From positions 1 to 64,000 of the forward strand of contig JAEPNO010000006.1 in NCBI GenBank assembly GCA_017643365.1: DNA of 64,000 nt, in the 5' to 3' direction. Made by a program: the position numbers and the translations under genes. The notes under the pieces are model-generated. The model was not told where the DNA came from. It did not search any database and worked only from the letters and a program-made list of their open reading frames with translations. This stretch comes from Balneolaceae bacterium. GTDB lineage: Bacteria; Bacteroidota; Rhodothermia; Balneolales; Balneolaceae. This document shows positions 44,160-48,363 of this stretch, piece after piece; the stretch's first letter is position 1; every line of letters starts with the position of its first letter.

Positions 44160-44930
44160 TCAAGGCTCTGAGTTGATAATCGACTCAGCGTCTTCAGCCA
44201 AGGCAAGTACCGCGCTTTGATAAAGCGAGCTTGGATTGTAGCGTAAAACGGCGGTTTCAAGGCTGCCGGTTACATTTACAAAGTGAGCCAAATAGTTAGC
44301 CACCGAGTTAATATTATCGGGCATATGATAAAGCTCGTTGCCTACCCAAAATCTTTTCAGCGAAGTAGGGATAAACTGCGCGTAACTCATAGCGCCTGCG
44401 TAGCTCGATTTCAAAGACAAAATGTCCATGTCTTTCTTTTCAGCAAATTCGATAAGATCTTCGAGTTGAGCCAGTGCCCATTTTGCGCGATGATCTTCCA
44501 CATACATACTCACGTACACATTAAAAGGATTGTAGCGACCTTTATTTTTTCCGAAATCGGATTCAACCGCTATGATTCCGATAATCACCTCTTTGGGGAT
44601 GCCGTATTCTGCTTCAGCGGCTTTTAATTCTGCGCTGTACTTAGAGTAAAAGGTGTCGATAGCGCTCTTTTTGGCATCATAACCGATCACTTTCTTGTAA
44701 TCATCAAGACTTTCGATACGTCGTTCTGCAGATCGGGTAAACTTACGCGTGATTTTCTCTACCAAGGCAAAGCGCTCATCATCGAGCAGTGGTTTGATGT
44801 CCACTCCTTTGGCATTAAAATGATCAACCAGTTGTTGGATACGGTCGTCGTCGGACGAGTTTACAGGTGCTTCGGAAGCCATCGGCTCCGGAATTAAAAA
44901 TAGTGATAGTAGTAAAAGCAGGATTTTCAT
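44160..44930 (-). CDS. Exported MltB-like lytic murein transglycosylase
   Basis: 256 aa from the ATG at 44930; a TTG two codons earlier is possible. Signal peptide MKILLLLLSLFLIPEPMA. The catalytic Glu is in IIAVESDFGKNKGRYNPFNV; the R-A-K-W-A-L-A-Q-L-E-D-L and SYAGAMSYAQFIPTSLKRF segments match GH103/MltB. It cuts glycan strands and forms anhydro-muramic ends. It is the gene directly downstream of the BlaI/M56 sensor operon on the same strand, separated by ~115 nt, so its expression or products might be tied to wall sensing; that link is inference. Confidence 0.88.
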   Translation of the reverse strand: MKILLLLLSLFLIPEPMASEAPVNSSDDDRIQQLVDHFNAKGVDIKPLLDDERFALVEKITRKFTRSAERRIESLDDYKKVIGYDAKKSAIDTFYSKYSAELKAAEAEYGIPKEVIIGIIAVESDFGKNKGRYNPFNVYVSMYVEDHRAKWALAQLEDLIEFAEKKDMDILSLKSSYAGAMSYAQFIPTSLKRFWVGNELYHMPDNINSVANYLAHFVNVTGSLETAVLRYNPSSLYQSAVLALAEDAESIINSEP

Positions 44931-45046
44931 AGCCAAACGATCTCTTGTGATGATTTCTCGAGCAGTAAGAACGATTATTTTTGAGTCTTGGTCAAGATGG
45001 AGAATAAATATTTACTTGATTAATGATTTATAGAAAGAAAATTGAA

Positions 45047-45769
45047 TTACTCCAGTTCGACAATAGTCTCCACAATTTCACCTTTATAGTAAAGCCGCTG
45101 CTCTTTAATGGCACCTTGTTCATCATAAGTAGTTGCTAGGCCATCTATACCGTGTTCCGGAATAATTTGAAAGTAAAAGGCTAATTCCCCATTTGGGTGA
45201 AATTGCTCATAGACAGTTACAGAATCTCTATCAGTTATTCTCAAAGATTGTATCATGCTGTCAGGGCTTAGGAAATCATAGTGAGTTGAGACTTTATTAC
45301 CGTCGGAATCTAAAGAAGGGATTACCACTACTTGGTGTTGATATACTCCGTCGAGATCAAACTGAGGAAATTCAGTTCTCGATACTTTTCCATCTACCAT
45401 GGTTTGTCGGTACAAAACAGAGTCTGTTTCTATATCAAAAGTAGTTCGCTCTCCTGTGTAAGGTTCTCCATCTGGGCCGAGAAAAATGCCGGTCCGTTCA
45501 TCTAGCGGATGAAAAAGACCTGTTGTTCCTTCGGATTCCAGTTCGATATCGTGATAGGTTGTAGGGGGTAAATTAGCTTGCAACTCCTCAAAGGATAAGC
45601 TAATCGGTTCATACTCTGTATTGGTGCAAAACATAAACACCAATGATGCAGTTACGGGAATAACTAAAGAAAGTAAGCCAAAGAGCTTAATCAGTGGACT
45701 CTTCTTCCCCATCAACACAAGTCGCTTCTTGGTTAGCGAAAAATCGAGTTTATTGGTGAGTTGTTTCAT
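45047..45769 (-). CDS. Split-BlaR1 sensor subunit C (linker, membrane helix, MORN/YwqK-like domain)
   Basis: 240 aa. Begins MKQLTNKLDFSLTKKRLVLM, the linker that in fused M56 (BlaR1-like) proteins follows the protease and precedes the last membrane helix; the helix is residues ~28-49. The outer domain has GEPYTGERTTFD, FHPNGELAFYF, and YDEQGAIKEQRLYYKG, repeats of the YwqK/MORN-2 type. The ATG overlaps the preceding gene's stop by 4 nt, with GGAGG 8-10 nt before it: tight coupling. Third and last of three paralogues. No catalytic residues. The role as sensor is inferred from architecture. Confidence 0.75.
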   Translation of the reverse strand: MKQLTNKLDFSLTKKRLVLMGKKSPLIKLFGLLSLVIPVTASLVFMFCTNTEYEPISLSFEELQANLPPTTYHDIELESEGTTGLFHPLDERTGIFLGPDGEPYTGERTTFDIETDSVLYRQTMVDGKVSRTEFPQFDLDGVYQHQVVVIPSLDSDGNKVSTHYDFLSPDSMIQSLRITDRDSVTVYEQFHPNGELAFYFQIIPEHGIDGLATTYDEQGAIKEQRLYYKGEIVETIVELE

Positions 45770-46485
45770 TTAATCGCCTCCAAAAGCGCACCATTTTTGT
45801 AATGCTCTTGTTTCAATAAATTGCCTTGTTGGTCATAACGTGAACTAATCCCATGATTTATGCGATCAAATATAGAGCTGGACTTTAAATAGGTTGTTGT
45901 CCACTCCAGTTGACCGTTCGGATAAAATGTGTTCGTTGTTTCTAAGCTATCTGAATGCGAAAATACCTCAAAAGATAAGGTTCCATTTTGCCAAACACGG
46001 TTGCTAAGAAAGGCGCCTTCATCAAATTCATATATTTGATGTTGCTTAATTTCTCCATTATCTGAGAATCTTTTTCCTTCAATCATGTAACCATTTTTGA
46101 AAGTTTCCTGCATCCTAATTGAGTTATCGGTTCTATCGTACCAAGTTTGTGAACCGGTGTATAGGTTGCCGTCTAAATCATAAACCTGATTGAACCGGGA
46201 TTCAATAAAGGTTTTTGAAACCAATGTTAAATCTGAATACAACCCTTTATTGGAATAGAAGTCGTCTGGTTTGTAATAATGATTGTAATAGTAAACATGC
46301 TCTTCGCCATTGATCATAATTGTATCTGTAATTCGATACGAGCTTGAGAAAAACACTAATGAGCTACAAATAGGGATCATAAAAACCAGAAAAACAATAA
46401 TTCGGCTTTTGGATGAGCGCTTACCCATCATCAAAAAGCGTTTTAAAGTAAGTGAAAAATCGAGTTTATTGGTGAATTGCTTCAT
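45766..46485 (-). CDS. Split-BlaR1 sensor subunit B
   Basis: 239 aa. Begins MKQFTNKLDFSLTLKRFLMM; membrane helix residues ~29-49; then an exported domain with DLDGNLYTGSQTWYD, FKNGYMIEGKRF, FYPNGQLEWTTTYL and YDQQGNLLKQEHYKNG. The first ~22 residues are almost the same as in subunits A and C, and at the DNA level share CACCAATAAACTCGATTTTTC with C, while the outer domains differ widely. Overlaps both neighbours by 4 nt (ATGA). See the M56 entry for how the parts would fit. Confidence 0.75.
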   Translation of the reverse strand: MKQFTNKLDFSLTLKRFLMMGKRSSKSRIIVFLVFMIPICSSLVFFSSSYRITDTIMINGEEHVYYYNHYYKPDDFYSNKGLYSDLTLVSKTFIESRFNQVYDLDGNLYTGSQTWYDRTDNSIRMQETFKNGYMIEGKRFSDNGEIKQHQIYEFDEGAFLSNRVWQNGTLSFEVFSHSDSLETTNTFYPNGQLEWTTTYLKSSSIFDRINHGISSRYDQQGNLLKQEHYKNGALLEAIK

Positions 46486-47144
46486 TTAATCTTCTCTATA
46501 CCATTTCTCCCATAAATTTCGTGCCAGGATACGTTTCCTCTGATATCATATCGGATCATTATCGTTGAATCATTGTTCTCGTAATGTTCATAATAAGACT
46601 GTAACTGGCCAAACGGATACCATTCCTGGAAAACGTGATTGCCACTATGTACGGGTGGCAAATGTATCGTCTCCCGTTGTAAGTACTCATTTTGATAAAT
46701 GGAAGTCGATTTAATTAAACGTTGATCGAAATCGATGATGTCATCAATTCTCTCTTTTACATTTCCATCAATATCATAGTTCTTTAATTGAATCCGTATT
46801 CCATTTTTGAAGGTTATTGAGGATTTTGGCATGTCTGACTTTTTGAAATACTCGGTTTGTGTACCGGTAAATAGTTCACGGTCTTTTGTGAAATACAACG
46901 TATGAACCTGCTCTAGTGACTTTAACGACTCTCCTTCTGGGATTAAATCTTGCGGGTACAGAGTTATATCAGAGTAGGTAGTGTTCGGTGTGATTTCGAC
47001 ATCCCCAAATGGGAAAGTGATAACAAACAGCATTGGGATTACAACTGATAGTTTAGCGACAATCCAGAATATTGATTTCTGTGAGCTCATCTTCTTAAAT
47101 CGGTAAAATGTCAGAGAAAAATCGAGTTCATTGGTGAGTTTCAT
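46482..47144 (-). CDS. Split-BlaR1 sensor subunit A
   Basis: 220 aa. Begins MKLTNELDFSLTFYRFKKM; membrane helix residues ~25-46; outer domain with TYSDITLYPQDL, DRELFTGTQTEYF, WYPFGQLQSYYEHY and YDIRGNVSWHEIYGRNG. It starts 3 nt after the M56 stop and in the same reading frame (TAA, ATC, ATG), so only one stop codon separates protease from linker: a fused BlaR1-like protein would result if the stop were read through or absent. No good ribosome-binding site is near its ATG, which fits translational coupling. Confidence 0.75.
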   Translation of the reverse strand: MKLTNELDFSLTFYRFKKMSSQKSIFWIVAKLSVVIPMLFVITFPFGDVEITPNTTYSDITLYPQDLIPEGESLKSLEQVHTLYFTKDRELFTGTQTEYFKKSDMPKSSITFKNGIRIQLKNYDIDGNVKERIDDIIDFDQRLIKSTSIYQNEYLQRETIHLPPVHSGNHVFQEWYPFGQLQSYYEHYENNDSTIMIRYDIRGNVSWHEIYGRNGIEKIK

Positions 47145-47147
47145 GAT

Positions 47148-47939
47148 TTAAGAATTAGCGATTTGGGATTTCCCTTTTGATGACGCGAATTTCAGTAGAA
47201 TCTCCTGATATTTCTTTCGATCAGATACATGAGTCACTACATGCTCATCAGCTAAGAACTCGTGATTAAGCATGATGGAGTTTCGGAATCCATACATAAA
47301 CGGGTTGAACCAGAACACCACTTTTAAGGCTTCAATGAACAGCACATCCAGCGAATGCTTTTGTTTGATGTGAGTGCGTTCGTGTTCCAAAATTTCATCG
47401 CCAATTTTGCCTGACTCATATTCTTCTCGATTCAAGAAAATCCATTTCAAAAAAGATTGAGGGGTAACAGACTCATCCATCAAAATGAGTGTAGTATCTT
47501 TCCATGTTATGGATGTTCCCTTTTTTATAGAGGTGTAAATTTCTTGCAGACCAAAAACAAACTTCCCAAACAAAAGAACAACCACCGCCAGGTATCCAAA
47601 AATCATTGCTAGAGCCAGTAGGTTATACTCAGGTTTAACAGGAGCAGAAACCGAAGACTCTTTAAATGCAGGGGCTTTGGTCACCAATGGTGAGATCGAT
47701 TCAACCACCAAATCAGTGGGTGCTTCAACAATCTGATCAACTTGTTTCAAAGCAATTCCGGCTACCGGGGAATTAGGGCTAATCTCGAACTGTATAAGCG
47801 GCGCAGTTAACCCAATCACCAAAGCAGCTAATAAATAAAAACGATTGAATCGGTGCATCTTCTCATTTTCGAGAAGCAGCGTGTATAATCCCCAAAGAAG
47901 CGCAAGTAGGATGGTCGATTTTACAAGATAAACGATCAT
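47148..47939 (-). CDS. M56 (BlaR1/MecR1-like) membrane metalloprotease, ends before the sensor part
   Basis: 263 aa. Three N-terminal membrane helices (residues ~3-23, 33-50, 107-130), then the cytoplasmic protease with H186-E-R-T-H190 and NHEFLADEHV (225-234, third ligand region). In BlaR1-like proteins the chain continues with an L-T-x-x-[ILF]-x-[FY]-S-L-T-K-K-R linker, a fourth membrane helix and an outer sensor; here the frame stops at KGKSQIANS just before it, and the next three genes each supply those parts. It would cleave BlaI on signal. Overlaps blaI by 4 nt. Confidence 0.9.
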   Translation of the reverse strand: MIVYLVKSTILLALLWGLYTLLLENEKMHRFNRFYLLAALVIGLTAPLIQFEISPNSPVAGIALKQVDQIVEAPTDLVVESISPLVTKAPAFKESSVSAPVKPEYNLLALAMIFGYLAVVVLLFGKFVFGLQEIYTSIKKGTSITWKDTTLILMDESVTPQSFLKWIFLNREEYESGKIGDEILEHERTHIKQKHSLDVLFIEALKVVFWFNPFMYGFRNSIMLNHEFLADEHVVTHVSDRKKYQEILLKFASSKGKSQIANS

Positions 47940-48307
47940 GATTCTTTCCTCTCAATTTCTTTATCGATGATGGCGCGTAATTCCTCCAGTTCTTTGGCAG
48001 AAAGATCGGTTTCCTTCGTAAAGAAGGAAGCAAACTGAGCCGAAGAGTTGTTAAAAAACTTTTTGATTAAGCCTCGAACATGCGATCCAAAATAATCGGT
48101 TTTCGCCACCAAGGGGAAATACTGGCGGGAACGGCCGTGTTGGTTATAGCTCACAAATCCCTTTTCCTGCATACGTTTTAGTAAGGTAGCGATGGTAGTT
48201 GGAGCCGGTCTCGGATCAGGAAATTGCTCAAGCAGATCACTCATATAAGCCTTTTCAAGGTTCCATAAGTGTTCCATTAATTCTTCTTCGGTATTAGATA
48301 ATTGCAT
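47936..48307 (-). CDS. blaI: BlaI/MecI/CopY family repressor
   Basis: 123 aa. Winged-helix DNA-binding domain (EEELMEHLWNLEKAYMSDLL, then TTIATLLKRMQEKGFVSY) and a C-terminal dimer helix bundle (LSAKELEELRAIIDKEIE). The usual protease cut in this family lies in the dimer part. First gene of the operon, overlapping M56 by ATGA. A BlaI-type dyad is found on its own -7 box, implying self-repression. Confidence 0.94.
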   Translation of the reverse strand: MQLSNTEEELMEHLWNLEKAYMSDLLEQFPDPRPAPTTIATLLKRMQEKGFVSYNQHGRSRQYFPLVAKTDYFGSHVRGLIKKFFNNSSAQFASFFTKETDLSAKELEELRAIIDKEIERKES

Positions 48308-48330
48308 GTTCTACTAATTTAGAGGTTGCT

Positions 48331-48342
48331 CTACAAATGTAG
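48331..48342. promoter_or_regulatory. BlaI-type operator CTACA-AA-TGTAG
   Basis: CTACA and TGTAG form an inverted repeat with a 2-nt centre, the TACA-n2-TGTA form known for BlaI/MecI sites. It covers the -7 box of the blaI operon and lies 24 nt before the blaI start. A weaker, imperfect dyad lies at 48311-48324. Confidence 0.75.
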
Positions 48343-48363
48343 AAAATTAAATGGTAACTTCAA
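48334..48363 (-). promoter_or_regulatory. Promoter of the blaI-M56-sensor operon
   Basis: On the minus strand TTG (48363-48361), 19 nt, then TACATTTG (48341-48334): an exact fit to the Bacteroidota -33/-7 pattern. The -7 box is inside the BlaI dyad, so repressor and polymerase cannot bind together. Confidence 0.75.

Follow-up and report, generated by a model that had tools for sequence, protein, structure and literature searches.

A BlaR1-type receptor of Balneolaceae in which one M56 protease is probably served by several detached sensor subunits

The window analysed here, the first 64,000 nucleotides of contig JAEPNO010000006.1 from a Balneolaceae bacterium (assembly GCA_017643365.1), carries an operon of five genes, all on the minus strand (48307 to 45047), in the order blaI, M56 protease gene, S1, S2 and S3. 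It probably encodes a BlaR1-type receptor whose single M56 protease works with several sensor subunits from the same autoregulated operon. BlaR1 and MecR1 are single chains; here the composition of the chains differs, and the linker and the fourth transmembrane helix (TM4) open the next three genes. The three detached proteins are most likely trans-acting sensor subunits which complete one shared protease.

Organization of the operon

47936 to 48307, minus strand: blaI, BlaI/MecI-type repressor of 123 amino acids (Penicillinase_R, E 1.6e-28)
47148 to 47939, minus strand: M56 zinc protease of 263 amino acids, without linker, TM4 or sensor (Peptidase_M56, E 5.3e-16)
46482 to 47144, minus strand: S1, detached sensor of 220 amino acids, with linker helix, TM4-like helix and MORN-like outer domain
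45766 to 46485, minus strand: S2, detached sensor of 239 amino acids (sequence and profile search)
45047 to 45769, minus strand: S3, detached sensor of 240 amino acids, its outer domain of the same type as the fused sensors of genomes G155, G262, G231, G399 and G085

The blaI product scores 99.8 bits against PF03965 (cut-off 22.6), and its F96 aligns with the cleavage-site Phe102 of MecI/BlaI. The protease scores 59.1 bits against PF05569 (cut-off 31) and has the HExxH...E zinc site, formed by HERTH (186–190) and E227; H186, E187, H190 and E227 are invariant in alignment A4, and E227 and D231 are conserved in the alignments. Against the NCBIfam BlaR1 model it scores 26.8 bits, the cut-off being 400. 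An earlier note on this DNA had described blaI, an M56 protease with three membrane helices and an HExxH motif, and three paralogues, a description confirmed by profiles, alignment and structural model. The blaI/M56, S1/S2 and S2/S3 junctions are ATGA overlaps and the M56/S1 junction (TAA-ATC-ATG) has a gap of 3 nucleotides, again as described.

S1, S2 and S3 begin with MKLTNELDFSLT, MKQFTNKLDFSLT and MKQLTNKLDFSLT, respectively, and these starts align with the stretch that follows the M56 domain in fused relatives (TSSINFSLTKKR). The alignment upholds the proposal that the M56 chain stops ahead of the linker and that each of the next three proteins begins with the linker and a membrane helix. 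It also meets the objection that the three proteins might lack similarity to M56 C-terminal regions, as their linker and helix align with those of fused M56 receptors. S1 is 25–33% identical to S2 and S3. The outer domains had been taken for different YwqK/MORN-like domains; they are weakly MORN-like and belong to one diverged family, in which MORN_2 (PF07661, cut-off 29.6) reaches only 23.6 bits in S2 and 17.9 bits in S3 and has no match in S1. Pfam and NCBIfam searches gave no match to a penicillin-binding (transpeptidase-type) domain in S1–S3. In the genome, which comprises 51 contigs and is 99.8% complete, one M56 and one BlaI in total passed the thresholds used; S1–S3 therefore have one possible protease partner.

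Correspondence with BlaR1

Profile A5 matched BlaR1 weakly by hmmsearch, and hhalign was used instead; a profile of 22 fused receptors aligns with residues 175–324 of Staphylococcus aureus BlaR1 at E 8e-7. By alignment, Glu227 of the window protease corresponds to BlaR1 Glu242, Asp231 to Asp246, and the arginine of the SLTKKR motif in the linker (R15) to Arg294.

47102 to 47100, minus strand: codon of S1 Arg15

In BlaR1, Arg294' is carried by helix alpha9', the helix exchanged between the protomers, and its partner is Asp246 in the opposite chain (PMC9834060). Both residues of this pair, by which the active site is completed across the BlaR1/MecR1 dimer, are conserved here by alignment. Only four residues are invariant among 28 detached sensors (20–34% identical to S1), and R15 is one of them; it is invariant in the fused receptors too. 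In S1 both preceding lysines are gone (SLTFYRF) and the arginine is kept.

The scissile bond of BlaR1, Ser283-Phe284, is located in the loop just before helix alpha9; autocleavage at this bond occurs spontaneously and does not itself constitute the signal, but it raises the efficiency of BlaI cleavage (PMC9834060). A gapless count back from the arginine places the start of S1 near BlaR1 residue 280, so that the boundary between the two chains coincides with the autocleavage site to within a few residues. Judged by these alignments, the split gene pair comes close to a pre-cut BlaR1, the helix that acts in trans already in BlaR1 being now encoded by another gene.

The same correspondence could mean that the detached proteins serve the protease as substrates or inhibitors instead of sensors, with an N-terminal tail which fills the active site, is cut, and tunes or titrates the enzyme. 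The detached N-terminus does correspond to the autocleavage loop region, and BlaR1 holds this loop in its own active site (PMC9834060). However, such a role leaves the large, diverse and exchanged outer domains and the retained membrane helix unexplained, and conservation in the detached sensors is lower at the scissile site than at the arginine. We regard this explanation as improbable.

Is the split genuine?

47145 to 47150, minus strand: split point, comprising the M56 TAA and one codon before the S1 ATG (sequence and alignments)

In the alignments, the split point lies no more than a few residues from the position at which BlaR1 cuts itself. In fused relatives the linker, TM4 and sensor continue in one chain (...LLIRVSSGNKQMSTTSGISYSLTKKR...), whereas the window protease ends in ...FASSKGKSQIANS and the next chain opens with the S1 start given above. 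S1 is in frame with M56, with one stop codon and one codon between them, so a miscalled base could in principle fuse both. A sequencing error or a single nonsense mutation was considered on this account and rejected: S1 starts like other detached sensors, and its Met aligns in register with theirs, as comparison with S2 (MKQFTNKLDF) and S3 (MKQLTNKLDF) indicates. Three further findings speak against a base-call error. The M56/S1 junction contains eight alignment columns found in no fused relative; S2 and S3 are independent full copies of the S1 design; and G187, on a single contig, has the same split with the sensor in another frame, a GTGA overlap and five intact sensors. The earlier note had allowed that close relatives might carry fused genes and that the split might be an error; fused relatives do exist, and the error is rejected.

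A related explanation is ordinary decay, in which a stop codon broke a fused receptor and functionless paralogous leftovers remain behind it. The single TAA ahead of an in-frame S1 is what decay would leave, and relatives do lose the system. In G123, which belongs to the genus of the window genome, blaI and M56 have been lost, and between lpdA and the transglycosylase gene only a broken sensor is left (L048:5989-6490). Four orphan sensor open reading frames (ORFs), from four genomes, begin just after the linker (L053:5790-6392, L054:2030-2650, L055:6184-6795 and L056:5733-6347); those of G223 and G147 come immediately after what remains of a frameshifted blaI, which looks like deletion of the central part of the operon. 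In these few cases, loss of the protease goes with loss of the linker. Against decay in the window stand the detached-type N-terminus of S1 with its eight extra columns, the intactness of all three sensors and of the catalytic residues, and the split of G187 in another frame with five intact sensors. Decay, already disfavoured, is very improbable.

Distribution of detached sensors

A profile of the sensor family was searched over 92 Balneolaceae genomes and the loci were then read; linkers were detected by profiles, a regular-expression scan having missed many true linkers. Thirty detached sensors were found in 13 of the 92 genomes: three in the window genome, five in G187, seven in G073, four in G139, two in G058, two in G401 (one interrupted), and one each in G155, G368, G258, G085, G262, G399 and G400. 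In the loci read they are downstream of an M56 gene, mostly with spacings from a 4-nucleotide overlap to an 11-nucleotide gap.

In nine of the 13 genomes a sensor of this family is also fused to the protease itself (a frameshift interrupts that of G400). The protease of two close relatives, G073 and G401, has TM4 and a short tail which does not match the sensor family (L033:6035-7399 and L047:763-2130), and that of the window genome and of G187 lacks any fused TM4, linker or sensor. The recurrence looked for in the earlier note is therefore present, as the same split in G187 and as 30 detached sensors in 13 genomes. Its distinction between fused and split receptors was only partly apt: the split is real and recurs, but close relatives do carry fused M56-sensor genes, usually with further detached sensors behind them. 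Since most relatives thus retain a fused sensor besides the detached ones, the general design is a protease that has several sensors, and a receptor split completely, as here, represents its extreme form.

Outside Balneolaceae, no detached sensors were seen among the matches listed for profile A3 in 394 Bacteroidota genomes and 79 GTDB loci, a survey which scored seven candidates per genome and in which a rare exception could thus be missed. The linker matches listed there lie within long M56 frames, with the exception of G214.

Four further arrangements were observed. In G214, from another Bacteroidota family, the M56 receptor gene is frameshifted before the linker (L019:803-2172), by decay or assembly error. 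G171 has one blaI followed by three tandem fused M56 receptors (L045:4865-9871), which is another way to link several sensors with one repressor. Two fused M56 receptors are found in G058, G155, G262 and others. Behind the sensor array of G187 and G401 (L032:235-2727 and L047:3488-4315) there is a putative cyclase (PF04199).

Exchange of outer domains between fused and detached sensors

Fused and detached sensors are not separate lineages, a finding which is new here. In the sensor tree the two kinds are interleaved. S3 groups with the five fused sensors listed above (support 100/100) and with a detached sensor of G258 (G258_d1); the fused sensor G368a groups with detached sensors of G262, G058, G155, G399 and G400; and the detached sensor of G368 groups with fused sensors of G344, G147 and G270. 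A single clade of detached sensors is rejected by the approximately unbiased (AU) test with P 1.7e-8 (22 rows), and again with P 2.4e-111 when only near-complete genomes are considered (seven detached and seven fused sensors); the group constrained was picked by slot and not from the tree. At least four to six slot changes are required.

The first nine residues follow the slot. They are 84–93% identical within detached sensors (84% between detached sensors of different type); for a detached sensor and a fused one of the same type the figure is 27%. The interleaving in the tree together with these slot-bound residues indicates that an outer domain is kept in both formats and that the cytoplasmic N-terminus is format-specific. 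Breakpoints are seen at the linker (G058b/G258) and just after TM4 (G231b/G404b, with 94% identity in the protease and 38% in the outer domain, the G404 assembly being 9% contaminated), and identity rises again at the C-terminal tail. At the sensor boundaries in the window there are 77-nucleotide direct repeats:

47082 to 47158, no strand assigned: copy 1, M56 end and S1 start, 61% identical to the reference copy
46420 to 46496, no strand assigned: copy 2, S1 end and S2 start, 79% identical to the reference copy
45704 to 45780, no strand assigned: copy 3, S2 end and S3 start, the reference copy

The detached genes might accordingly be mainly a reservoir of donor cassettes for the fused receptor, with no protein role of their own; recombination through the conserved linker and tail would then move their outer domain into that receptor, in the manner of orphan cassettes in Rhs/CDI loci. 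The movement of outer domains between slots, the breakpoints at or just after the linker and TM4 with the renewed identity at the C-terminal tail, and the direct repeats at gene boundaries would all suit such a reservoir. However, each copy has a start codon, predicted translational coupling and a slot-specific N-terminus unlike that of fused sensors, and the window genome and G187 have no fused sensor to receive a cassette. Purifying selection also acts on the one close detached pair that can be measured (G155/G399, 91% identical), whose ratio of non-synonymous to synonymous substitution rates (dN/dS) is 0.13, fused pairs giving 0.12–0.18. As the whole function of these genes a donor role is unlikely; it is a partial rival, and may coexist with a role as sensor subunits.

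Predicted structures

A read-through model of M56 and S1, with the stop read as Gln (mean predicted local distance difference test, pLDDT, 80), contains three membrane helices and the zinc domain, then a junction of low confidence (262–271), a linker helix (274–285) and a membrane helix (290–311). It matches BlaR1 with Z 16.4 (229 residues, root mean square deviation, rmsd, 6.5) and 8EXT with Z 16.3 (217 residues, rmsd 3.8); the first unrelated structure follows at Z 9.7. This one-chain model, with fused homologues in its alignment, indicates predicted compatibility of the two parts, not assembly. The S3 model (pLDDT 77) has a linker helix (11–20), a membrane helix (26–48) and a beta-sheet outer domain. 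The latter resembles the single-layer sheets of OspA (Z up to 9.9) and, at Z 6.6–6.7, MORN1, which may be only a common arrangement. A profile search of solved structures with the sensor gave nothing meaningful.

Predicted operators

48329 to 48344, no strand assigned: predicted BlaI operator, dyad TTCTACATTTGTAGAG in minus-strand reading (conservation and genome-best match)
48309 to 48324, no strand assigned: second, weaker predicted operator, dyad CTCTAAATTAGTAGAA, beside the blaI start (sequence)

Upstream of blaI there is a perfect dyad, CTACATTTGTAG, and then the second dyad. In 22 of 23 Balneolaceae blaI loci the dyad core occurs without mismatch, its distance from the start codon being nearly constant, and the predicted operator at blaI is the best match in the whole genome. 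A counterpart of the second dyad, TCTAAnnnTGTAGAA, is conserved in most relatives; such a pair of sites may permit cooperative BlaI binding. A search of the genome with CTACANNTGTAG gave three sites against 11 for the reversed control, and the 16-mer with two mismatches gave 28 against 29 in the control. As these counts are at or below control, they yield no reliable second BlaI target. In a promoter and terminator scan the counts were at or below those of shuffles.

Proposed mechanism

The proposal of the earlier note, one protease shared by the sensors, is supported by the linker helix and TM4 on S1–S3, by recurrence and by the sole M56 of the genome; its further step, the physical assembly of these chains, we infer, together with signal transfer, BlaI cleavage and the identity of the signal. 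The M56 chain, with three helices and the zinc domain, ends where BlaR1 enters the autocleavage loop, and each detached sensor would supply the cytoplasmic linker helix (equivalent to BlaR1 alpha9), the fourth membrane helix and a MORN-like beta-sheet outer domain. The linker arginine would pair with M56 Asp231, in the manner of Arg294-Asp246 across the domain-swapped BlaR1 dimer. A signal on any outer domain could then shift the linker, lead to cleavage of BlaI and derepress the operon. A stronger version is a modular receptor with a set of interchangeable subunits, any of which can provide the protease with the sensor, the last helix and the linker that completes its active site; outer domains recombine between fused and free forms, and one repressor integrates several evolving inputs. 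We would give this version an even chance.

Several points weigh against the shared-protease reading. The protease of most relatives keeps its own TM4 and sensor or another tail, and a detached subunit there would either compete with the built-in one or add to it. The homology of the sensors to MORN_2 is weak, and conservation of the linker could partly stem from its use as a recombination flank. The M56 tree in which the two split genomes (window and G187) are placed has open forks, allowing one or two split events. The operator is reliably found only at blaI itself, and that M56 and the sensors physically meet is something we infer.

Relation to known systems

S. aureus BlaR1/BlaI (PDB 8EXP-8EXT; PMC9834060) shares with the window system the gluzincin M56 protease, the helix layout, a linker arginine aligned with that at the active site of the dimer, a BlaI-type repressor and a dyad operator, and the chain boundary here falls where BlaR1 cuts itself. 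BlaR1, by comparison, is a single gene, and each protease has just one sensor, a penicillin-binding domain. The fused M56 receptors of Bacteroidota (for example those of Fodinibius halophilus and Flavobacterium spp.) have homologous protease, linker and TM4, and those of Balneolaceae also have the same outer-domain family; in contrast to the window, protease, linker, TM4 and outer domain are one chain in the non-Balneolota loci inspected.

In Rhs and contact-dependent inhibition (CDI) systems, displaced cassettes encode C-terminal domains that vary beyond a conserved junction, and additional copies lie downstream of the main gene. The window copies differ from these, being intact, start-codon-bearing membrane proteins of a signalling system with a conserved N-terminus of their own.

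The mycobacterial BlaR (Rv1845c) is an M56 protein reported to lack an extracellular sensor domain (PMC5473688, citing Sala 2009), and the literature covered describes no detached sensor genes of the window type for it. Sensorless M56 proteins are thus already known, and the detached sensor genes and the sensor exchange appear to be the new aspect. No report of split M56 receptors, detached linker-TM4-sensor genes or sensor exchange was found in the open-access papers searched, which is not proof of absence.

Transmembrane signalling by BlaR1 is still debated, with regard to what moves, the role of autocleavage and the reason for the domain swap. A receptor cut near the BlaR1 autocleavage site, with the swapped helix on a separate gene, would be a two-part version provided by nature, whose protease and sensor could be combined, titrated and mutated independently. 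Exchange of outer domains between fused and free forms would show how receptors acquire new inputs, and could provide a template for engineered sensors.

Neighbouring gene

A gene for an MltB-like lytic transglycosylase (SLT_2) lies at 44160-44936, about 110 bp downstream of S3, and had suggested wall sensing. The transglycosylase was considered as part of the system and rejected, which leaves the suggestion without support: the gene is retained in G123 despite the loss of blaI and M56, and in relatives it lies on either side of blaI, upstream in some, so that it is probably a syntenic neighbour. Nothing in these data speaks for a beta-lactam or a cell-wall reading. In G187 a further sensor-like ORF, without a linker, lies behind the transglycosylase gene.

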